From Sandaracinus amylolyticus (GTDB lineage Bacteria > Myxococcota_A > Polyangia > Polyangiales > Sandaracinaceae): a stretch of 64,000 bases of DNA. The DNA lies in assembly GCF_000737325.1 (NCBI RefSeq), contig NZ_CP011125.1, positions 5,146,001 to 5,210,000 of the forward strand. The letters run 5' to 3'. The notes beneath the pieces were generated by a model. That model was not told the origin of the DNA and did not search any database. It saw only the letters and a program-made list of their open reading frames with translations. This document shows, one piece after another, positions 36,411-50,981 of the stretch (position 1 is the first letter of the stretch; every line of letters starts with the position of its first letter). A program made the translations under genes and the position numbers.

Positions 36411-36477
36411 GGGATCGGCGCTCGTCTGCTCGTTGGTGCACCGACGCGTCGGAAAGAACGACGCCGCGCACGTGAGC

Positions 36478-38073
36478 ATGACCGAGGGAGCACGGCCGAC
36501 CGTCTGGGTCGCCGAGGACGTCACGATCGAAGCCGAGGCGGTTCGACGCACGTTGTCCGCGACCTACCACGTCGTGCTCTTCAGCGACGGCGCGGGCGTA
36601 TTGGAGCGCGCGGCCACGGGCGAGCTGCCCGATCTGCTGGTGCTCGACTGGCACATGCCCGGCGTGCAGGGGATCGAGGTGTGCCGGTTCCTGCGCACGC
36701 AGGAGGCGACGCTCGGGCTGCCGATCCTCGTGTTCACGTCGACCGGTGACGAGCAGGACATGCTCGAGGCGCTCACCGCGGGCGCCGACGACTGGGTCGG
36801 CAAGCAGGCGAGCGCGGCCGAGCTGTTGGCGCGCGTGGCGACGCTCGTGCGCGCGAAGCAGCTGCGTGATCGCGCCGAGCGCGCGGAGCGCGAGATCGCC
36901 ACGCTGCTCGTGCGCGAGCGAGAGGCGCGCGCCGAGGCCGAAGCCGCGAACCGCGCGAAGGACGTGTTCCTCGCGATGGTCTCGCACGAGCTGCGGACGC
37001 CGCTCAACGCGATCCTCGGATGGTCGCGCCTCTTGCGCTCGGGGACGCTCGACACGACGCGCTCCGAGCGCGCGCTCGACACGATCGAGCGCAACGCGCG
37101 CGCGCAGGCGCGCATCGTCGACGACCTGCTCGATCTCTCGCGCGTGATCGCGGGGAAGCTGCGCCTCGAGCGCGTGACGCTCGACGCCGCCGACGAGGTC
37201 GAGCAGGCGATCGAGAGCCTGCGTCCCGCGGCCGCGGCGAAGGGCGTGGTGATCGAGCAGCGCGTCGACCGCGGGCTGATGATCTGGGGCGATCCCGCGC
37301 GCGTGCAGCAGGTCGCGTGGAACCTCGTGTCGAACGCGATCAAGTTCACGCCGGCGGGCCGTCGCATCGAGGTGACGCTCGCGCAGGAGTGCAACGACGT
37401 CTGCCTGCGCGTGCGCGACGAGGGCATCGGGATCGATCCCGCGCTCGTGCCGCACGTGTTCGATCGCTTCCGCCAGGCGGACTCGACGACGACGCGCGAG
37501 CAGGGCGGGCTCGGCCTCGGGCTCGCGATCGTCCGGCAGCTCACGGAGCTGCACGGCGGCCGCGTGCAGGCGTTCAGCGCCGGTCCGGGCCACGGCGCGA
37601 CGTTCGAGATCCACCTCCCTGCGCACACGATGCACGAGCGGCCGGACGCGACGGAGGTACCGCGGGTGCGCGACGACGCGCGCGGGCTGCACCTGCTCGT
37701 CGTCGACGACGATCCCGACGGGCTCGAGCTCCTGCGCGTCGCGCTCGAGCGCGCGGGCGCGTCGGTGCAGACCGCGTCGTCGGCGGCCGCGGCGCTCGCG
37801 TTGCTCGAGACATCGGTGCCCGACCTGATGGTGTCGGACGTCTCGATGCCGAACCTCGACGGTTACGGGCTGATGCGCGCGGTGCGCGCGCGGCTCGGCG
37901 CGAAGTGGGTACCGGCCATCGCGCTCACCGCGCACGCGCGCGACGAGGATCGCTGGGAAGCGCTCGCCGCGGGCTTCCAGGTGCACGTGCCGAAGCCGCT
38001 CGACATCGACGAGCTGCTCTCGGTGATCCGCAGGCTCGTTCGGCGTCCCGAGGCTCCTCCGCCGGAACGTTGA
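36478..38073 (+). CDS. Hybrid histidine kinase, REC-HisKA-HATPase-REC
   Basis: The 531-residue soluble protein starts with a receiver domain (VAEDVTIE, LVLDWHMPG with the phospho-Asp), then a coiled coil, HisKA (MVSHELRTPLN), HATPase (NLVSNAIKF, DEGIGIDP, GGLGLGLAIV) and a second receiver (VVDDDPDGLELL, VSDVSMPNLDG, KPLD). It has no membrane span. ATG 36478 is preferred over GTG 36472. It heads the chemosensory operon with a 96-base gap to cheY, so it may feed phosphoryl groups into or out of it. Confidence 0.93.
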   Translation: MTEGARPTVWVAEDVTIEAEAVRRTLSATYHVVLFSDGAGVLERAATGELPDLLVLDWHMPGVQGIEVCRFLRTQEATLGLPILVFTSTGDEQDMLEALTAGADDWVGKQASAAELLARVATLVRAKQLRDRAERAEREIATLLVREREARAEAEAANRAKDVFLAMVSHELRTPLNAILGWSRLLRSGTLDTTRSERALDTIERNARAQARIVDDLLDLSRVIAGKLRLERVTLDAADEVEQAIESLRPAAAAKGVVIEQRVDRGLMIWGDPARVQQVAWNLVSNAIKFTPAGRRIEVTLAQECNDVCLRVRDEGIGIDPALVPHVFDRFRQADSTTTREQGGLGLGLAIVRQLTELHGGRVQAFSAGPGHGATFEIHLPAHTMHERPDATEVPRVRDDARGLHLLVVDDDPDGLELLRVALERAGASVQTASSAAAALALLETSVPDLMVSDVSMPNLDGYGLMRAVRARLGAKWVPAIALTAHARDEDRWEALAAGFQVHVPKPLDIDELLSVIRRLVRRPEAPPPER

Positions 38074-38169: not shown

Positions 38170-38550
38170 GTGGCCAACATCCTCGTGGTGGACGACAGCA
38201 AGGTGATGCGCGACATGGTCGTCGCGTGCCTGCGAGGTCTGCCCGGCGCCGTGTTCGCCCACGCGGGCAGCGGCCTCGAGGCGATCGAGCGGCTCTCGAT
38301 GGAGCGCTTCGAGCTCGTCGTGCTCGACCTCAACATGCCGGACATCGGCGGCATCGAGGTGCTCGAGTTCGTGCGCGGGCAGGATCACCTCAAGACGCTG
38401 CCGATCATCGTGGTGACGACGCGCGGCGACGAAGGGTCGCGCGCGAGCTCGCTCGAGGCGGGCGCGTCGCGGTTCATGGTCAAGCCCTTCTCGCCGGAGG
38501 AGATCCTCGCGGAGACGCGCGCTCTGCTCGGCCCCGCCGAGGGCGTGTGA
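38170..38550 (+). CDS. cheY: CheY-like single-domain response regulator
   Basis: The 126-residue receiver has the acid pair DD (8-9), phospho-Asp53 in VVLDLNMPD, Thr in VVTTRGDEG and the lysine of MVKPFSP. GAGG six bases before GTG 38170 serves as ribosome site. It overlaps cheA by GTGA. The place within a che operon makes it the likely soluble CheA target. Confidence 0.94.
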   Translation: MANILVVDDSKVMRDMVVACLRGLPGAVFAHAGSGLEAIERLSMERFELVVLDLNMPDIGGIEVLEFVRGQDHLKTLPIIVVTTRGDEGSRASSLEAGASRFMVKPFSPEEILAETRALLGPAEGV

Positions 38551-40595
38551 GCCGCGTCGATCTGCGCGAGTTCCTCGACGCATACCTCGACGAGGTCGAC
38601 GAGCACCTCGCGAACGCGAACACGCAGCTCCTCGCGCTCGACGCCGCGCTGCGCGCGGGGGAGCCGACGCTGCGCGCGGTGCGCGAGCTGTTCCGCGCGC
38701 TGCACACGATCAAGGGGCTCTCCGCGATGGTCGGCGTGGAGCCGATCGTCGCGATCGCGCACCGGATGGAGGCGTCGCTGCGCGCGGCGGATCGCGCGGG
38801 CGGGCACGTGCCCGAGGGCGCGATCGACGTGATGCTGCAGGCGGTCGCCGCGATCCAGCAGCGCGTTCGCGCGCTCGCGAGCGATCGCCCGGTGCCCGCG
38901 CCGCCGAGCGCGCTGCTCTCGGCGCTCGACGCGCTCGACGAGGTCCGCACGCCGCTGCCGGTCGCGCGTGCGACCGGCGGGCTCGCGCTCGATCCCGTGG
39001 TGAACGCGAAGATCGCGGCGTTCGAGCGCGACACGCTGGAGCGCGGCATCGCCGGTGGCCGGCGCGCGCTGTGCGTGCGCTTCGCGCCGTCGCCCGAGCG
39101 TGCGGCGGCGGGCACGAACATCAACACCGTCCGCGAGCGGCTCGGTGTCATCTCCGAGATCGTGAAGGTCGTCCCGGTGTCGGCGCCGCGGAGCGCGGAG
39201 GCACCGGCCGGGCTCACGTTCGCGCTGCTCGTGCTCACGCACGCATCCGACGAGGAGGTCGTGCGCGCGGTCGGCGTCGATGCCGGCTCGATCGAGATCG
39301 TGGGCGAGCCCGCGGCGAGCGCGCCGGCGCCCGAGCCGCAGGTCGCGCCGATCCCGGCGATCGAGGACGACGAGCGCGACGACGTGCAGCGCCGCGGCGT
39401 GGTGCGCGTCGACGTCGCGCGGCTCGACGAGGCGCTGGAGCGGCTCGCGCAGCTCGTGATCTCGCGTGGCGTGCTCGCGCGCGAGATCGCGGCGCTCGCC
39501 TCGCGCGGCGCGGACGTGCGAGGGCTGCAGATCGTCCTGCGCGAGCAGTCGCGGCAGCTGCGCGACATGCGCGCGGCGGTGCTGCAGCTGCGCATGGTGC
39601 CCGCGAGCGAGGTGCTGGAGCGCGTGCCGCTGGTCGTCCGCGGGCTGCGGCGCGCGACGGGCAAGGCGGTGCGCCTCGAGCTCGACGCGGGGCGCACCGA
39701 GCTCGACAAGGCGGTCGCCGAGCGGCTCTTCCCGGCGCTCGTGCACCTCGTGCGCAACGCCGTCGATCACGCGATCGAGCCGGCGGAGGAGCGACGGCAG
39801 GCGGGCAAGCCGGAGGAAGGTCTTCTCCGCGTGACGTTCGAGACGCGCGGCACCGGGCAGATCGCGCTGATCGTGCAGGACGACGGACGCGGCATCGACG
39901 CGGAGCGCGTCGCCGCGCGCGCGGGCGTCGAGGTGCCGAACAACGACGCGGCGCTCCTCCAGCTGCTCTGCCGGCCCGGGCTCTCGACGCGCGATCAGGT
40001 GAGCACGACGAGCGGACGCGGCATCGGCATGGACGTGGTGCGCCGCATCGTCGTCGAGGAGCTCGGCGGCGATCTCGCGATGACGACGACGCCCGGGCGC
40101 GGCACGACGATCACCGCGCGCGTGCCGCTCACGCTGTCGATCGTCGACGTGCTCACGTTCGAGTGCGGCGCGCAGCGCTTCGTCGTCCCGATGGCGACGA
40201 TCGACGAGATCATCGAGGTCGATCCGACGCACGTCTCGGCGCCGCCGCGCGTGCACGGTGCCTCGACGGTCGCGCTGATCGAGCGGCGCGGCGAGCCCGT
40301 GCCGCTGGTGCGGCTCGATCGGACGCTGGGCCTGTCGAGCTCCGATCCCGAGCGCCCCAAGGCGCTCGTCGTACGGCGTGACGGCGACGCGATCGCGTTC
40401 GCGATCGATCGCACGATCGGCCAGCAGGAGGTCGTGGTGAGGCCGCTCGAAGATCCGCTGCTGCGCGTGCCCGGCGTGACCGGCGCGACCGATCTCGGCG
40501 ACGGCAGGCCCACGCTGGTCGTCGACCTCGTGGCGCTGCTCTCGCGGATGAGCGCCGAAGTGCGCTCCTTCGAGCCGAGCGAGGTGCGGACGTGA
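38547..40595 (+). CDS. cheA: Chemotaxis histidine kinase CheA
   Basis: The 682-residue protein has an HPt domain (His53 in FRALHTIKGLS), a linker, a dimerisation domain (VRVDVARLDEALERLAQLVISR), an ATPase (HLVRNAVDHAIEP, DDGRGIDAE, GRGIGMDVV, TPGRGTTI) and a C-terminal CheW-like domain. There is no clear P2 domain with CheY/CheB docking; in its place is a region with GINTVRERLGVISEIVKVVPV-like folding. GTG 38547 forms GTGA with the cheY stop. No attached receiver. Confidence 0.96.
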   Translation: MSRVDLREFLDAYLDEVDEHLANANTQLLALDAALRAGEPTLRAVRELFRALHTIKGLSAMVGVEPIVAIAHRMEASLRAADRAGGHVPEGAIDVMLQAVAAIQQRVRALASDRPVPAPPSALLSALDALDEVRTPLPVARATGGLALDPVVNAKIAAFERDTLERGIAGGRRALCVRFAPSPERAAAGTNINTVRERLGVISEIVKVVPVSAPRSAEAPAGLTFALLVLTHASDEEVVRAVGVDAGSIEIVGEPAASAPAPEPQVAPIPAIEDDERDDVQRRGVVRVDVARLDEALERLAQLVISRGVLAREIAALASRGADVRGLQIVLREQSRQLRDMRAAVLQLRMVPASEVLERVPLVVRGLRRATGKAVRLELDAGRTELDKAVAERLFPALVHLVRNAVDHAIEPAEERRQAGKPEEGLLRVTFETRGTGQIALIVQDDGRGIDAERVAARAGVEVPNNDAALLQLLCRPGLSTRDQVSTTSGRGIGMDVVRRIVVEELGGDLAMTTTPGRGTTITARVPLTLSIVDVLTFECGAQRFVVPMATIDEIIEVDPTHVSAPPRVHGASTVALIERRGEPVPLVRLDRTLGLSSSDPERPKALVVRRDGDAIAFAIDRTIGQQEVVVRPLEDPLLRVPGVTGATDLGDGRPTLVVDLVALLSRMSAEVRSFEPSEVRT

Positions 40596-41029
40596 GCGTG
40601 CTGCACGTGCTCTTCCGCGTCGGCGATGCGGAGTACGCGATCGCCGCCGACGAGGTGCTCCAGATGGAGTCGTACGACGGCGCGACGCCGGTCCCGAACG
40701 CGGCGGCGCACGTCGCGGGGATCGTGCAGGTGCGCGGGCGCGTGGTGCCGGTCGTCGATCTGCGCGTGCGCTTCAACGCGCCGGTGCGCGAGCGGACGAT
40801 CGATACGCGCGTGGTCGTCGCGCAGCGCGGCGAGCGCGCGGTGGCGCTGCTGGTCGACGCGGCGCGCGAGGTCGCGCGGCTGGCGCCGGAGCAGCTCAAG
40901 CCGCCGCCGCCGATGGTAGCGGCGCAGAGCGCGGGTTTCGTGCGCGCGATCGCGCAGGTCGCGGGGCGCATGGTGATGCTGATCGATCTCGACCGGGTGG
41001 TCGGCGAGGAGCGGCTCGATGGCGAATGA
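40592..41029 (+). CDS. cheW: Chemotaxis coupling protein CheW
   Basis: The 145-residue adaptor keeps the family pattern: [50 protein letters not shown] and a C-terminal [13 protein letters not shown]. It bridges receptor tips and CheA. GTG 40592 overlaps cheA by four bases, and the receptor gene starts inside it (11 bases). Confidence 0.95.
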
Positions 41030-43571
41030 GCAGACGGACAACGGGACCTCGTACGCCGCGGCGGCGCTCGGGCAGCTCGGCGCGATCGCGCGCGCGCTCG
41101 CGGAGACCTCCGAGCTCGGGCGCGGCATCGAGGTCTCGGCAGAGCAGATCGCGGGCGCGGGACGCGAGCGGGCCGCGGCGGGCGACCAGGTGCGCGCCGC
41201 GATCGAGGCGGTCGCCACGGGCATCGAGAGCGCCTCGGTGTCGGCCGAGGAGCTCTCGCGCTCGCAGGCGAACGTCGGTGATCTCGCGCGCGGCCTCCAG
41301 AAGAGCGGCGAGGAGACGGCGAGCGGCCTCTCCGAGGTCGCGGCGTCGGTGCGCAAGGTCGAGGCCGACGCGGCGTCGCTCGCGCAGTCCGCGGACGCGA
41401 CCGCGACGACGCTCGAGCAGACCGCACGCTCGGTGAAGAGCGTCGCGAGCGACGCGCAGGAGCTCGCGGCGGCGAGCGAGCAGCTCCTCGCGAGCGCCAG
41501 CGAGACCAGCGCGACGGTCGCGGACATCACGGCGCGCGGTCAGACGAGCGCCGCATCGGTCGAGCAGGTCGCGGCGACCGCGGCCGAGATGTCGGCGGGG
41601 ATCACGCGGCTCGCGACCGACGCACGCGGCGTGGGCGCGCGGATCGGCGAGGTCAGCACGACCGTCGCGTCGGTCGGCGACGCGCTCGCCGTGGTCGCCC
41701 GCGACAGCGCCGAGATGGCGGCGGCGGTCGACCAGACGAGCACGACGACCGAAGAGCTCGCGCGCTCGATCCGCAGCACCGCCGATCACGCGCGCGCGCT
41801 GCAGGAATCGGCGGCGAACGTGGGGTCGAACACGAACGAGATCGCGTCGTCGGTCGAAGAGGTCGCGGCGACCGCGCAGAAGAACGCGAGCGTCGTCGAC
41901 GCGAGCGCGACGGCGATCGAGCAGCTCGCGCGCACGGCGCAGCTGTCCGCGCGCGGCGCGGAGCAGATCGAGCAGCTCGCCGCCACGAGCGCGACGGCCG
42001 CGGGGCAGCTCGAGACGTCGACGCGCCGGATGGCGCAGGTCGCGGAGAGCGCGCGCATCACCGCCGATCGCGTGGGCGGTGCGGCGCGCGAAGGCGGCGC
42101 GACGGTCGCGAAGTCGATCGCGGGGCTCGGCCGGATCCGCAATTCGATCGCGGAGTCGGCGGGGGTCGTGAAGGAGATGGGCCGCCGCGCCGAGGAGATC
42201 GGCGACATCGTGCAGACGATCAACGTCATCGCGGATCGCACGAACCTGCTCTCGCTGAACGCGAGCATCGAGGCGGCGCGCGCCGGCGAGCACGGTCGCG
42301 GGTTCGCGGTCGTCGCCGAGGAGATCCGCGCGCTCGCGGATCGCGCGGCCGCGGCGAGCGCGGACATCGCGAAGATCGTCCGCCAGCTGCAGAGCACGGC
42401 GCGCGACGCGGTCAGCTCGTCGAGCGACGGGCTGCGCGCGGCGGACGAAGGGGCGTCGCTCGCGGGCGACGCCGAGCGCGCGCTGGCGACGATCCTCGGC
42501 GGTGTCGAGGAGCTCGGCGGCGGAGTCCGCGATCTCGCGCGCGGCGCGGCCGAGCAGACGGGCGCGGTGCAGGCGGTCGTCGGCGCGACGCAGCGCACGA
42601 GCGAGCACGCGCGCACGATCGCGAACGCGGCCGACGAGCAGGTCCAGGCGACGCAGACGCTCACGCGCGACGCGAACGAGCTGCGGAAGATGGCGCGCCA
42701 GACGTCCGAGGCGACCGCGGATCAGGCGCGCCGCCTGCGCGACGTGGTGCGCGCGAACGCGCAGCTCACGACGACGGCCGAGCAGGTCGCGGTCGCCGCG
42801 CAGGAGCAGGCCGCCGCGTCGACGCAGCTCGCGGGCGCGGCGAACCGCCTCCGCGGGCTCGCGCAGCGGACGACCTCCGCGATGGCGGAGCAGAGCAAAT
42901 CGATCGGCGCGACGGCTGCCGCGGCGGCCGAGGTCGCGACCGCGACGCAGCGCACGATCGGAGGGCTCGGCGAGCAGGCCCGCGGCGCGAGCGAGATCGC
43001 GAAGGCGATGGACGCGTCGCGCAAGGACGCGGTGCAGACGGCCCGCGCCCTCGACGAGCAGTCCCGCGCGACGAAGGAGATCGAGTCGACGGCGCGCGAG
43101 GTCGCGCGGCTCGCGCAGTCGATCACGCGGGCCGCGTCGGAGCAGAGCCAGGCGACGTCGTCGCTCGCGAAGGGCGGCGACGACGTGCGGCGCATCGCGA
43201 AGCAGACGGCGCGCGCCGTCGAGGAGCAGAGCCGCGCGCTCGAAGATCTCGCCGCCGCGGCGACGCGCCAGAGCCGCGACATCACCACCGTCGCGCGCGC
43301 GACGATCGAGCAGGGCAGCGTGAGCTCGAGCATCGCGAAGGAGCTCGGCACGATGCGCGAGCGCGCGAGAGAGATCGTCGGCGTCACCGCGCAGCAGGCG
43401 ACGGGGCTGCGCACGCTCGCGTCGAGCGCAGCGGAGATCGCCGAGGGCGTCTCGCGCGTCCGCGAGCTGGTCGCGGAGCAGAACGAGACGGTCTCGACGC
43501 TGGCCGCGGCCGTCTCGACGGAGAGCGGCGGTCCGGGGAGCGGCGTCCACCGCGGCACGGGGCACGCGTGA
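41019..43571 (+). CDS. Soluble methyl-accepting chemoreceptor of exceptional length
   Basis: The 850-residue protein lacks membrane spans and any ligand-binding domain I can see. The receptor tip lies in the centre (about 399-450): [40 protein letters not shown]. On each side about 400 residues of Ala/Glu/Gln/Ser-rich heptads run to the ends, so the chain may form one antiparallel hairpin with symmetrical arms. That is roughly twice as long as cytoplasmic receptors such as FrzCD. Many Glu-Gln and Ala-Ala pairs could be methylation sites for CheR. It overlaps cheW and the HEAT gene. Confidence 0.93.
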
Positions 43572-45922
43572 CCTCTCGTCTCGCGCTCTCGGCCGCCGAT
43601 CGCGCGCGCGCGGCCGAGGTCGACGAGCTCGCGTCGCAGCTGCCCGCGACGCTGGGCGAGCTCGTCGCGTGCCTCGATGCGCCGACGTGGCCGGTGCGGC
43701 GCGCGGCCGTCGCGGCGCTCGCGCGCGCCGGGGACGTCGCGGTCGCGCCGCTGGTCGAGATCCTGAAGAGCCGGCGCGATCGCGAGGCGCGCCTCGCGGC
43801 GGCGGTCGACGCGCTCGCCGCGTCGAGCGGTGACGTCGACGCCGCGATGCTCACCCTCGCCGACGCAGCGCCGCCCGCGGTGGTGTGCGACGCGCTGCAG
43901 GTCCTCGGTCGTCGGCGCAGCGCGGTCGCGATCCCCGCGATGGCCGAGCGCGTCTCCGACCCCGACGACAACGTCGCGGTCGCGGCGCTCGAGGCGCTCG
44001 GTCGCGTGGGCGGCGGCGCCGGGCTCGACGCGGTGATCGAAGCCGCGAGCAGCGGTCGCTTCTTCCGCGTGTACCCCGCGATCGACGTGCTCGCGCGCTC
44101 GGGGGACGCACGCGCGATCCCGCCGCTCGAGCGGCTCGTGGACGATCCCCTCTGCGGCCCCGAGGCTGCTCGTGCCCTGGCGCGTCACGGCGATCTCGCG
44201 GCGGTCGGCGCGCTCGCGCGGCGCCTCGTCGCACGCAGCACGTCGATGGCGCGCGTCGCTGCGATCGCGCTGGTCGAGGCGATCGATCGCCTGCACGACC
44301 GGTTCGGCGCGGCGCCCGGCGCGATCGAGGCGATCCGCGCCGAGCTCGCGGAGCACGAGGGCGCAGCAGGACAGATCGCCCAGGCGCTCGCGGGCAGCGA
44401 CGCCGAGGCTCGCGTCGCGCTCGCGCGCGTGCTCGGCTGGCTCGGCGACGACGACGGTGCCCCGCCGCTGATCGATCTGCTCGCGGACGACGACCCGCGC
44501 GTCGCGCGCGCCGCCGCCGAGGGGCTCGCGAGCATCGGCCGCGCCGCGGAGCGCAGCCTCGTCGACGCACTGCCGCGGATGTCGAGCGAGCTGCGCGCCC
44601 TGGTCGTCCCGCAGATCGTCGCGCGCACCGAGTACGCGTCGGCGATCGCGTCGTGCCTCGACGATCCGCGCCCCGACGTGCGCGCGATCGCGTGCGCCGC
44701 GCTCGCGCGTGCCGGCGCGACGGAGGTCGTGCCGCGGCTCTTCGCGCTCGTCGCCGATCCCGACGCGCGCGTCGCGCAGGCCGCGCTCGCCGCGATCCAG
44801 GCGCTCGGCGACGCGTCGACCGAGCCCCTCGCGATCGCCGCCACGCGGGATGCCGATCCGCGCGTCCGGCGCGCCGCGCTGCGCCTGCTCGGGTACTTCG
44901 GCTGGCCGAGCGCCCTCGCCCCGCTGCTCGCGGCGGTCGCCGAGCCCGACGATCGCATCGCCGAGCTCGCGCTCTCGAGCCTCGCGTACGTCGAGCATCC
45001 GCAGGCGCGCTCGGCCCTCCTCGACGCGAGCCGGAGCCCGCGCCCGCGTGTCCGCGCCGCTGCGCTGCGCGCGCTCGGCGACCTGGATCGCAGCGACGAG
45101 ACCGTCGAGCGCCTCGTCGAGGCGCTCGACGACGAGGCGCCGTGGCCGCGCTACTTCGCGTGTCAGGCGCTCGGTCGCCTCGGCGCGACGGCGGCGATCG
45201 ACGCGCTCGTCGCGCACCTCGGCGATCCCGCCGGCCAGGTGCGCATCGCGGTGATCGACGCGCTGGCGCGCCTTCCCGGCGAGCGCGCGTCGCAGGCGCT
45301 GCTCGACGCCGCGCGCTCCGCCGATCCCGATCTGCGTCGCGCCGCGCTCGTGGGCCTCGGCATCGCGCGACCGCCCGACGCGCGCGCGGCGCTGCTCGCC
45401 GCCAGCGACGACGCCGATCCCGCCACGCGCATCATCGCGCTCTCCTCGCTCGGCTCGCTCGAGGGTGACGACGTGCTCGCCGCGCTCGTGCGCGCGGTCC
45501 GCACCGGCGACCCCGAGACGCGCGCCGCGGCGCTCGGCGTGCTCGCGACGCGCGACGGTCGCGACACCACGCGCGCGCTGATCGAGCTCGACCGCGACGA
45601 GCCGCTCGGCGAGCTCACGCTCGCCGCGCTCTCGACCCCCGCGAGAGGACGCATCCCCGCGATGCTCGAGCTGCTCGAGGACGCCGACGCCGCGACGGCG
45701 TCGCGCCTCACCGCCGCGCTCGCACGCATGAACCGCGAGGACGCGCGCGCCGCGCTCGGCGTCGCGCTCGCCACGACGTCGGTCGAGGCGCGCCGCGCGG
45801 CTGCGGCGGCGCTCGCCGCGATCGCGCCCCGCGAGGCAGCCGCGCAGCTCGAGCGCGCGCTCTCGCGAGATCCGGATGCCGAGGTGCGCCGGTTCGCGGC
45901 GCACGGGCTCGCACGACGATGA
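43568..45922 (+). CDS. HEAT-repeat protein (PBS-lyase/CpcE-like)
   Basis: The 784-residue soluble solenoid consists of about 24 HEAT-like repeats with the pattern D..vR..A..aLg.lg.....pL, for example [20 protein letters not shown] and [18 protein letters not shown]. The start GTG 43568 overlaps the receptor stop (GTGA) and cheR overlaps its end (ATGA), so it is an integral member of the che operon. In Myxococcus xanthus the Che7 system also has a HEAT-repeat partner (Cpc7) that acts with its CheY. A binding target or scaffold role is likely here too. Confidence 0.9.
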
Positions 45923-46728
45923 CCGATCGCGCTCCGCAGCAGATCCTGACGGTGCTCGCGCGCCTCGTCGAAGAGCGCACCGGCCTCCACTACTCCGAGC
46001 GCGACCGCGATCTCTTCGAGCAGAAGCTCGCCGATCACGCGGCCGAAGAGGGCTACCCCACGCTCCTCGAGCTCTACTACGCGCTGCGCTACGACGACCC
46101 GGACGGCGAGGTGCTCGATCGCGTCATCGACGCGCTCGTCGTCGGTGAGACGTACTTCTTCCGCGAGGCGCGCGGCCTCGAGGTGCTGCTCGAGCCGCTG
46201 ATCGAGCGCGCGCGGCGCGGCGAGCAGGTGCGCATCTGGTCGGCCGCATGCGCGACCGGCGAGGAGCCGATCACGATGGCGATCCTCCTCGATCGCGCCG
46301 GCGTGCTCGATCGCGTGGAGCTGGTCGCGACCGACATCAGCCCGCGCGCCCTCGAGCGCGCTCGACGCGGCGAGCACACGCGACGCGCGCATCGCGCCGT
46401 GCCGGACGGAATGCCTCCGTGGATCCAGGTCGACGGCGATCGCGCGATCGTGGACGAGCGACTGCGCGCGCGCATCGACTGGCGCCGCGTGAACCTCGTC
46501 GACGAAGCCGCGGTCGCGGCGCTCGGGCGCTTCGACGCGATCGTCTGCCGCAACGTGCTCATCTACTTCCACGACGAGCAGATCCAGCGCGTCGCGAGCT
46601 CGCTCGCGCGCGCCCTCCAGCCCGGCGGCGAGCTCCTGATCGGCGCATCGGAGTCGCTGCTGCGCTTCGGCAGCATGTTCCAGTGTGTCGAGCGCGGCGG
46701 CGTGTTCCTCTACGGCGTGACCTCATGA
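45919..46728 (+). CDS. cheR: Chemoreceptor methyltransferase CheR
   Basis: A 269-residue protein with the N-terminal helical domain (LVEERTGLHYSERDRDLFEQ), the ETYFFRE motif, SAM-binding WSAACATGEEP, ATDISPRALERAR and FDAIVCRNVLIYF. It methylates receptor glutamates. No TPR extension is present. ATG 45919 and the next start both overlap by ATGA, so it is fully coupled. Confidence 0.96.
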   Translation: MTDRAPQQILTVLARLVEERTGLHYSERDRDLFEQKLADHAAEEGYPTLLELYYALRYDDPDGEVLDRVIDALVVGETYFFREARGLEVLLEPLIERARRGEQVRIWSAACATGEEPITMAILLDRAGVLDRVELVATDISPRALERARRGEHTRRAHRAVPDGMPPWIQVDGDRAIVDERLRARIDWRRVNLVDEAAVAALGRFDAIVCRNVLIYFHDEQIQRVASSLARALQPGGELLIGASESLLRFGSMFQCVERGGVFLYGVTS

Positions 46729-47774
46729 GCGCTCCGCACCGCAAGGTCCGCGTGCTCGTGTGCGACGACTCCGCGTTCGCGCGCAAGGTGCTGCGCGACG
46801 TGCTCTCGCGCAGCGATCGCATCGAGGTCGTCGACGCCGCGCGCGACGGCATCGACGCGCTCGAGAAGATCGCGACGCTCCGCCCCGACGTGATCACGCT
46901 CGACCTCGTGATGCCGAACCTCGACGGCCTCGGCGTCCTCGCTGCGATGCCTGCGGTGGACGCGCCGCGGGTCGTCGTCGTGAGCAGCTCGGCGTCGGAG
47001 AGCGATCTCGTGGTGAGGGCGCTCGAGCTCGGCGCGATCACGACCATCGAGAAGCCGACGGCGCTCGCCACCGAGCGCCTCTACGAGCTCGCGGGCGCGG
47101 TCGAGCGCGCCGTGCTGCTCGCCGCCGAAGCGAAGGTGCACCCCGCCGCCACGGCGACGCCGGTCACACCGATCGTCGTCGCGCCCCAGGCCGCGCGCAC
47201 GAAGCTCCTCGTGCTCGGCGCGTCGACCGGTGGCCCGCGCGCGATCACGCGCGTGCTGTCCGCCCTCCCCGCGTCGTTCCCCGTGCCGATCGCGGTCGTG
47301 CTCCACATGCCGGTCGGGTACACCGAGGCATTCGCTGCGCGCGTCGACGAGGCGAGCCCGCTCGAGGTCCTCGAGGCGCGCGACGGCCTCGAGCTCGTCC
47401 CCGGCCGCGTGGTGGTCGCCCGCGCCGGCATGCACCTGTCGATCGTGCGCGAGGACGAGCGTGTGGTCTGCGCGCTCGACGTGCTCCCGCTCGAGACGCC
47501 GCACCGTCCGGCGGTCGACGTCCTCTTCCGCAGCGCCGCGAAGGTGTTCGGCGCCGACGTGCTCGGGGTCGTGCTCACCGGGATGGGCAACGACGGCCTC
47601 GCCGGCGCGCGCGACCTCGTCGCGGCCAACGCGCAGGTGATCGTCGAGGACGCGAGCACGTGCGTCGTCTACGGCATGCCCCGCAGCGTCGCCGAGGCCG
47701 GCCTCGCTGCGGCCGAGGTGCCGATCGACGCGATGGCCGCCGAGATCGTCGCGCGCGTCGCGCAGGAGCCCTGA
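46725..47774 (+). CDS. cheB: Chemotaxis glutamate methylesterase CheB
   Basis: The 349-residue protein has a receiver (VLVCDDSAFARKVLRDVL, ITLDLVMPNLDG, KPTAL) and a methylesterase domain with the catalytic Ser in LLVLGASTGGPRA, His in VLHMPVG and Asp in LTGMGNDGLAGAR. It removes methyl groups from receptors. It is the last gene of the operon and ends four bases from the convergent cyclase gene. Confidence 0.96.
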   Translation: MSAPHRKVRVLVCDDSAFARKVLRDVLSRSDRIEVVDAARDGIDALEKIATLRPDVITLDLVMPNLDGLGVLAAMPAVDAPRVVVVSSSASESDLVVRALELGAITTIEKPTALATERLYELAGAVERAVLLAAEAKVHPAATATPVTPIVVAPQAARTKLLVLGASTGGPRAITRVLSALPASFPVPIAVVLHMPVGYTEAFAARVDEASPLEVLEARDGLELVPGRVVVARAGMHLSIVREDERVVCALDVLPLETPHRPAVDVLFRSAAKVFGADVLGVVLTGMGNDGLAGARDLVAANAQVIVEDASTCVVYGMPRSVAEAGLAAAEVPIDAMAAEIVARVAQEP

Positions 47775-47777
47775 GGC

Positions 47778-49649
<1,872 letters not shown>

Positions 49650-49715
49650 CGCGTTGAACGGCTTGGGCGAGTCGGATGCTATCGGGACGGCCGGGCCGAG
49701 TAAATAGCGACGAGC

Positions 49716-50981
49716 GTGCCGCCCGGGACACCGATTAGAGTGCGCGACGTGTGGCGCGCCGCGGACGAGGCCCTGCTCGCTCGGATCGAGGACGAGCACG
49801 TGCTCGAGCGTCTCTGGGCGCGCGCCGCGCCGGGCGCGACGCCGCTCCATCCGCGCGCGTCCGGCATGGTGCGTCTCCTGCGCGAGCGCGCCGACGCGCG
49901 CGACGCGATCGCGGCGGCGGAGTCGGGCAACGCCGCGCCGCTGCTCGTGCGGCTCGAGCCCTCGCGGCTCGAGGGCTGGTCGCCCGCCCTGGTGCACCAC
50001 CTCGCGCTCTTCCACCGCGCGCGCGCCGAGCACGCGATCGCGCGGGACGCGGTGAGCACGAGCGCGGCGCGCCAGACGCTCGAGCACGCGCTGATGCTGA
50101 TCGGCGCGACTTGGATCGCGCTCGGGCGCGAGCAGACCTACCTGCGCGAGCTCGCGCTCGACGTGATCGCGGGCGCGCTCCCCGCCGGCGAGATCGATCG
50201 CGCGGTCGACGCCGCCGCGATGCGAGGGCTCGACGTGATCGCCGCGATCGCGCGCGAGGGCATCGACGCGCGGCGCGGCGGCGCCGCGATCGCGCTGCGC
50301 GTGCTCGGTCGGGCGAGCGAGGTCGTCGCGATCGCCGGCGCGGACGGAGCGCTCGCCGATCGCGCGCAGGATCGCGCGCTCGGGCTGCGCAGCGAGCTGG
50401 TGCACACGATGCTCGCGCCGCTGTCGATCGAGATCGAGGAGCTCGCCGCGCGCGAGTGGAAGCCGATCGAGGTCGCGTCGGTGCTCGAGCGGGCGCGCGA
50501 TGCGTGGCGCTGGGCGGGCGAGGAGGTCGAGGTCGAGCGCTTCGTGGTGCGCGAGCTGCCGCGCTTCGCGTGGGACCTCTATCGCGCGCGCAAATGGGAC
50601 GACCTGCGGCTCGTGTTGCGGCCCCTCGAGCAGCCGAGCGACTCGCTCGCGATGCGCATCCAGCGTGACCCGATGGAGCTCGCGTGGGCGGCGCAGTGCG
50701 CGCAGGTGCTGGTCTTCCGCGCCGAGCTCGCGCCCACGCTCGACGCGCAGATCGGCCTCGCCGAGCGCGGCTACGCGCTGTGCCCGACGCTGCGCAACGC
50801 GCGGCTCGTGCTCGCGGATCTGCTCTGCGCGCGCGCCGAGCGCAGGCTCGAGGGGCCCTCCGTCCTGCGCGCCGCCGACTCCTGGCAGGACGCCAAGCGC
50901 GACATCACGCGCGCCGAGGAGATCCACCCCGAGCTGTCGCGCCTGCCCGCCGCGCGCGAGAAGCTCGCGAGGTCGCGATGA
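49716..50981 (+). CDS. Hypothetical helical-repeat protein
   Basis: A 421-residue soluble protein of unknown family. It is almost all helical and Ala/Arg/Glu-rich, with short TPR-like pieces in the last third (AAQCAQVLVFRAELAPTLDAQ, AERGYALCPTLRNARLVLADL). No catalytic motif is visible. The start could be GTG 49716 or GTG 49740. It is divergent from the cyclase gene and overlaps the next gene by ATGA. Confidence 0.6.
   Translation: MPPGTPIRVRDVWRAADEALLARIEDEHVLERLWARAAPGATPLHPRASGMVRLLRERADARDAIAAAESGNAAPLLVRLEPSRLEGWSPALVHHLALFHRARAEHAIARDAVSTSAARQTLEHALMLIGATWIALGREQTYLRELALDVIAGALPAGEIDRAVDAAAMRGLDVIAAIAREGIDARRGGAAIALRVLGRASEVVAIAGADGALADRAQDRALGLRSELVHTMLAPLSIEIEELAAREWKPIEVASVLERARDAWRWAGEEVEVERFVVRELPRFAWDLYRARKWDDLRLVLRPLEQPSDSLAMRIQRDPMELAWAAQCAQVLVFRAELAPTLDAQIGLAERGYALCPTLRNARLVLADLLCARAERRLEGPSVLRAADSWQDAKRDITRAEEIHPELSRLPAAREKLARSR

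Follow-up and report, generated by a model that had tools for sequence, protein, structure and literature searches.

The window analysed here, a 64,000-nucleotide stretch of the genome of the soil myxobacterium Sandaracinus amylolyticus (NZ_CP011125.1, positions 5,146,001 to 5,210,000), contains a chemosensory gene cluster in the order CheY-CheA-CheW-MCP-HEAT-CheR-CheB. These genes form one tight operon with overlaps of 4 to 11 bases between neighbors; for CheY and CheA the overlap is 4 bases, between the CheY stop and a GTG start. At its center lies an 850-residue chemoreceptor whose parts are listed together with the other genes, in window coordinates:

38170..38550, + strand: CheY, 126 aa (PF00072)
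38547..40595, + strand: CheA, 682 aa, with Hpt, HATPase and CheW domains (Pfam)
40592..41029, + strand: CheW, 145 aa (PF01584, E 6e-33)
41019..43571, + strand: Mcp7-type cytoplasmic MCP, 850 aa (open reading frame with ATG start; PF00015; identity to Myxococcus Mcp7)
41046..42281, + strand: N-terminal arm, residues 10-421, ~59 heptads (constant heptad phase; predicted helical by AF2)
41184..41924, + strand: N-arm acidic pairs resembling methylation sites, residues 56, 70, 133, 154, 182, 189, 238, 245, 280 and 301
42192..42404, + strand: conserved hairpin tip, residues 392-462 (near-invariant in 38 orthologs; predicted AF2 turn at 422)
42285..43526, + strand: C-terminal arm, residues 423-836, ~59 heptads (constant heptad phase; predicted helical by AF2)
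42552..43481, + strand: EQ ladder of 12 [EDQ]Q pairs at residues 512, 540, 568 and on to 820, at an exact spacing of 28 residues (4 heptads)
43568..45922, + strand: HEAT-repeat protein, 784 aa, Cpc7-like (PF13646 in 11 stretches, E 4.8e-79; place kept in ortholog operons)
45919..46728, + strand: CheR methyltransferase, 269 aa (PF01739)
46725..47774, + strand: CheB methylesterase with receiver domain, 349 aa (PF01339 and PF00072)

Both the operon order and full-length orthology place this system with che7 of Myxococcus xanthus, which consists of CheY7 (6965), CheA7 (6964), CheW7 (6963), Mcp7 (6962), gene 6961, CheR7 (6960) and CheB7 (6959) (PMC3945109). The receptor is 53-55% identical to Myxococcus Mcp7 proteins, and the identity to M. 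xanthus Mcp7 (53%) extends over the whole length. Mcp7 itself (MXAN_6962) has been listed with no membrane span and with an MCPsignal domain only (PMC3945109), and it likewise has no sensor module. Sequence comparison thus identifies the receptor as an ortholog of a protein that is already known. In M. xanthus AM003 the ortholog (L098:9935-12484) has 850 residues from its ATG, whereas Mcp7 of strain DK1622 was published as 821 aa and as a member of class 40H (PMC3945109); the published DK1622 start may lie 29 codons too late.

A genome scan recovered 58 loci with full or partial receptor orthologs (L043-L100), nearly all of them in Myxococcota, with Myxococcus, Corallococcus, Pyxidicoccus, Hyalangium, Polyangium, Sorangium, Minicystis and Kofleriaceae as hosts. 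The operon order is the same in nearly all complete loci; exceptions include one in which the HEAT gene precedes CheY (L052) and one in which no HEAT gene was detected (L094). Labels outside Myxococcota are confined to a few Bdellovibrionaceae and Planctomycetota MAGs and one Comamonas record, and the Mcp7 operons found under such labels (L051, L063, L073 and L079) may reflect mislabelling, mis-binning or gene transfer. In the window itself, a receiver-HisKA-HATPase-receiver hybrid kinase of 546 aa (36433-38073, + strand) lies directly 5' of CheY and could feed Che7, and just past CheB is an FHA + GAF + adenylate/guanylate cyclase-like open reading frame (47778-50927, - strand; translation judged by eye).

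The sole Pfam domain of the receptor is MCPsignal (PF00015, residues 354-527, E 5.5e-40, above the curated cut-off), which includes the invariant hairpin tip expected of an MCP; no sensor, HAMP, PAS or Cache family was found by Pfam in the 850 residues. Kyte-Doolittle hydropathy averaged over 19 residues peaks at 1.35, indicating that a transmembrane span is absent. Over the full length the protein has one proline (residue 839), one phenylalanine, one tyrosine and no tryptophan or cysteine, and alanine makes up 23% of residues. A hidden sensor domain was ruled out by Pfam, NCBIfam, composition and AF2, and models of SMC, Rad50 and tape-measure proteins, which matched weakly, were set aside as generic coiled-coil hits. 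The tip (turn at 422, E424) falls no more than 3 residues from the midpoint of the protein. By homology, residues 392-462 would be the region that contacts CheA and CheW, and E424 presumably matches the tip glutamate of E. coli receptors. A first-pass annotation of this DNA had already placed the tip at mid-protein and had seen neither a membrane span nor a sensor domain; these observations were correct, and no folded domain appears inside either arm, but the annotation missed both the Mcp7/Che7 identity and the conserved adjoining HEAT-repeat gene.

The heptad register was analysed by averaging hydrophobicity per aligned column over ~50 receptor orthologs and following the phase at period 3.5 in windows of 42. 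Across residues 10-836 the best hydrophobicity period was 3.500, and its power (0.172) exceeded the maximum of 5000 column shuffles (0.011), so the periodicity is not due to chance. The phase was constant across 29 non-overlapping windows (R = 0.97, maximum deviation 26 degrees); a slip of a single residue would shift it by 103 degrees, and no slip was found in either arm. A second, tip-anchored measure applied to single sequences gave 59 and 60 coherent heptads in the N- and C-arms of the receptor, 58-60 and 59-62 in the orthologs so tested, and 32 and 32 in a 64H-like receptor (L016). Described chemoreceptor classes have 12-32 paired heptads, with ~10.5 A added per pair, and a few rare receptors are said to appear longer (PMC6628036). 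By this coherence measure, as distinct from class HMMs, the receptor fits neither class 40H (20 paired heptads) nor class 64H, the longest described (32 paired heptads). At ~59 paired heptads it would be about 118H, nearly double the longest class described, and the ~10.5 A rule would give a rod of about 62 nm (~620 A).

The length of the arms is also strongly conserved. Interior indels are absent from 46 of 51 receptor orthologs (mean identity 51%), and indels per 100 residues at the ortholog loci number 0.02 for the receptor versus 1.18 for CheA, 0.90 for CheB and 0.31 for the HEAT protein; alignment of alanine-rich repeats can conceal indels, but the constant heptad phase argues otherwise for the receptor. 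The equal coherent length of the two arms, seen in each ortholog so measured and in shorter relatives, supports their pairing. As a check on antiparallel register, inter-arm charge complementarity was too weak to be of use.

Superimposed on the heptads is a longer repeat. In the C-arm the EQ rungs sit at residue 512 + 28k (k = 0-11), 8 of the 12 being kept in more than 90% of orthologs, and self-similarity peaks at 28, 56, 84 and 112 (z 4.5-6.9); in the N-arm it peaks at 56 and 112 (z 4.7). Counted from the E of EAARAG at the tip, the 12 rungs of Mcp7 run from +94 to +402, those of 64H-like receptors up to +178 (4 in L016), and that of TM1143 (44H) is at +94 only. The N-arm acidic pairs share one heptad position and are conserved in 74-100% of orthologs. 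Matches to the strict methylation consensus average 7.3 per ortholog and number 4 in the receptor, which is not clearly more than in heptad-preserving shuffles (mean 1.5, sd 1.2, max 9), so that composition alone can suffice. By their conservation, these pairs are candidate sites resembling those of methylation along the N-arm.

Receptors of other lengths suggest how the arms came about. A CheY-CheA-CheW-MCP-HEAT-CheR-CheB operon was found once in Gemmatimonadota, outside Myxococcota, on plasmid 2 of Gemmatirosa kalamazoonensis (NZ_CP007130.1; L123:5866-15392). Its receptor of 688 aa is symmetric, with 45 and 47 coherent heptads in the N- and C-arms (~92H) and 8 EQ rungs from +94 to +290. That both arms are shortened alike is the best sequence evidence for pairing along their whole length, coming from this one intermediate. 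No further receptor of the Mcp7 kind and of intermediate length was found among the listed loci in the surroundings of the Planctomycetota MAGs. A hybrid-kinase-like stretch lies 3' of CheB in the Gemmatirosa operon. A paralog in the same genome as the receptor (L001, G000 10250916-10254458) is 64H-like, with 33 and 31 coherent heptads and rungs at +94, +122 and +150. Receptors of class 64H share the hairpin fold and the tip-anchored 28-residue EQ spacing; they have 32 paired heptads as opposed to ~59, and the receptor described here lacks a HAMP or sensor module. The closest solved structure by sequence, Thermotoga maritima TM1143 (2ch7), aligns gaplessly over ~200 residues around the tip and has 22 paired heptads and a single rung, compared with ~59 and 12. 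Probably the ancestor was a shorter receptor whose two arms lengthened together, each gaining matched multi-heptad blocks of 28 residues or a multiple thereof.

Structure prediction agrees with a hairpin of this kind. A full-length AF2 monomer model, built with 38 sequences, gave helices at residues 10-181, 234-421, 423-612 and 664-836 (pLDDT 69, pTM 0.41), with a low-confidence, mirrored break at residues 182-233 and 613-663. Folded alone, residues 150-700 formed unbroken helices at 151-421 and 423-699 (mean pLDDT 84, none below 50), and the helices turn at residue 422 in both models. Because the break disappears in this shorter fold, it is probably an artefact of length. The best solved relatives of the 150-700 model are MCP cytoplasmic domains (2ch7, 3zx6 and MCPB/MCPC models): all 309 residues of the 2ch7 receptor hairpin were aligned (Z 14.0, rmsd 5.0), in keeping with an antiparallel helical hairpin. 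Other long coiled coils match as well, as expected. The overlapping AF2 pieces jointly span residues 10-836, and the full ~62 nm rod is assembled from these monomer predictions, with the dimer taken from the MCP family. The first-pass annotation had made the unusual length depend on all heptads being in register and had named breaks that would reduce the hairpin to a known class as its refutation; the register holds through both arms, the length far exceeds that of the usual classes, and neither the heptad phase nor the 150-700 fold contains such breaks.

Taken together, these data make it likely that the Mcp7-type receptor of Che7 is an unbroken antiparallel hairpin of ~59 paired heptads, ~62 nm long, that builds a cytoplasmic array with output to the HEAT-repeat protein. 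Each subunit would be a single such hairpin, and two subunits would form a four-helix rod, as in the MCP family. The tip would bind the CheW and CheA of the same operon. With no membrane anchor, the rods would assemble into an array standing free in the cytoplasm, probably as a sandwich joined at the tails. Lacking a ligand-binding domain, the receptor would have to take its input from a rod-bound protein, from methylation of the N-arm by CheR/CheB, or from a physical influence on how the rod packs. A bound partner is our first guess, since no part of the receptor appears capable of binding a ligand and the HEAT gene is nearly always next to it. Output would pass from CheA to CheY and on to the neighboring HEAT-repeat protein, as has been reported for the CheY7-Cpc7 pair in M. 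xanthus. In that species, Mcp7-GFP is seen as one or two subpolar clusters of high mobility, and the Mcp7-CheW7 pair provided the positive control for a two-hybrid assay (PMC3945109); Cpc7 interacts with CheY7 and has a role in development under stress (PMC11514114); and Che7 couples aggregation and sporulation, CheY7 being important both for spore viability and under temperature stress (PMC9040617). Control of a HEAT protein by CheY and a role in development or stress are known from M. xanthus only, and would extend to S. amylolyticus by analogy.

Rods of this length would place the baseplates ~62 nm apart if opposed rods overlap fully and ~120 nm apart if they meet tail to tail. An overlap of full-length rods from opposed baseplates, in their distal halves or fully, would put the CheA/CheW layers ~60-90 nm and not ~120 nm apart. 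The arrays of Rhodobacter sphaeroides and Vibrio cholerae do consist of two opposed receptor layers between baseplates (PMC3964821), and the distal arms keep the 28/56-residue spacing and the heptad phase, which would permit side-by-side packing. However, the published sandwich layers meet mid-way, through the ends that point away from their baseplates, and we regard overlap as possible but doubtful. It is unlikely that the rod is instead hinged or folded back halfway along both arms (~180-237 and ~614-664), which would yield a compact receptor and an array of no unusual thickness. The full-length AF2 model breaks at exactly mirrored places, and the two arms carry conserved glycines at roughly equal heights (N-arm G194 and G206, C-arm G649); the mirrored glycines could nevertheless be due to chance, the break is gone on refolding of residues 150-700, the heptad phase runs on uninterrupted with a strong signal at residues 190-252, and neither indels nor prolines accumulate in the region. 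A further reading, in which an ordinary 40H core bears alanine-rich extensions that are unconstrained and structurally unimportant, as the published class of M. xanthus Mcp7 (PMC3945109) and the peak of conservation at the tip might suggest, is very improbable, since the extensions are without indels and keep their length and heptad phase across Myxococcota, and carry EE and EQ motifs that are conserved even at a long distance from the tip.

On this sequence evidence, the published 40H class describes only the core of Mcp7, and its length variant is new; in the literature on arrays and heptad classes we found no account of Mcp7's length or of a ~118H hairpin, and a literature search found no imaged array of an Mcp7-type receptor. 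Array geometry, and the separation of receptor classes from one another, are thought to depend on receptor length. The longest whole receptor in a geometric survey measured 545 A with its sensor and membrane parts included (PMC6628036); the ~620 A predicted here would exceed that maximum, yet the length is kept across Myxococcota. The Mcp7-type receptor may thus build an unusually thick signalling array, and it is a natural case in which to ask why length is fixed and how a signal crosses 60 nm of coiled coil. In sum, we would advance only tentatively, as somewhat short of probable, a ~118-heptad class with a ~92H intermediate that arose by stepwise addition of matched blocks and that combines free cytoplasmic arrays, whose CheA layers lie 60-120 nm from each other, sensing free of a ligand domain, and output to a HEAT protein. 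The predicted rod could be tested in M. xanthus, a harmless laboratory organism, as mcp and cheA deletion mutants and the Mcp7-GFP fusion have been published (PMC3945109).

R. sphaeroides and V. cholerae offer a close parallel in their cytoplasmic arrays, which are membrane-free and built of soluble receptors, as would be expected here; a distance of ~27-35 nm separates the baseplates in those arrays (PMC3964821), compared with ~62 nm for each predicted rod. FrzCD of M. xanthus is likewise a cytoplasmic myxobacterial MCP without a classical sensor, but it has 417 aa, di-HAMP domains and no long arms, and associates with the nucleoid (PMC12077210), unlike the receptor described here.
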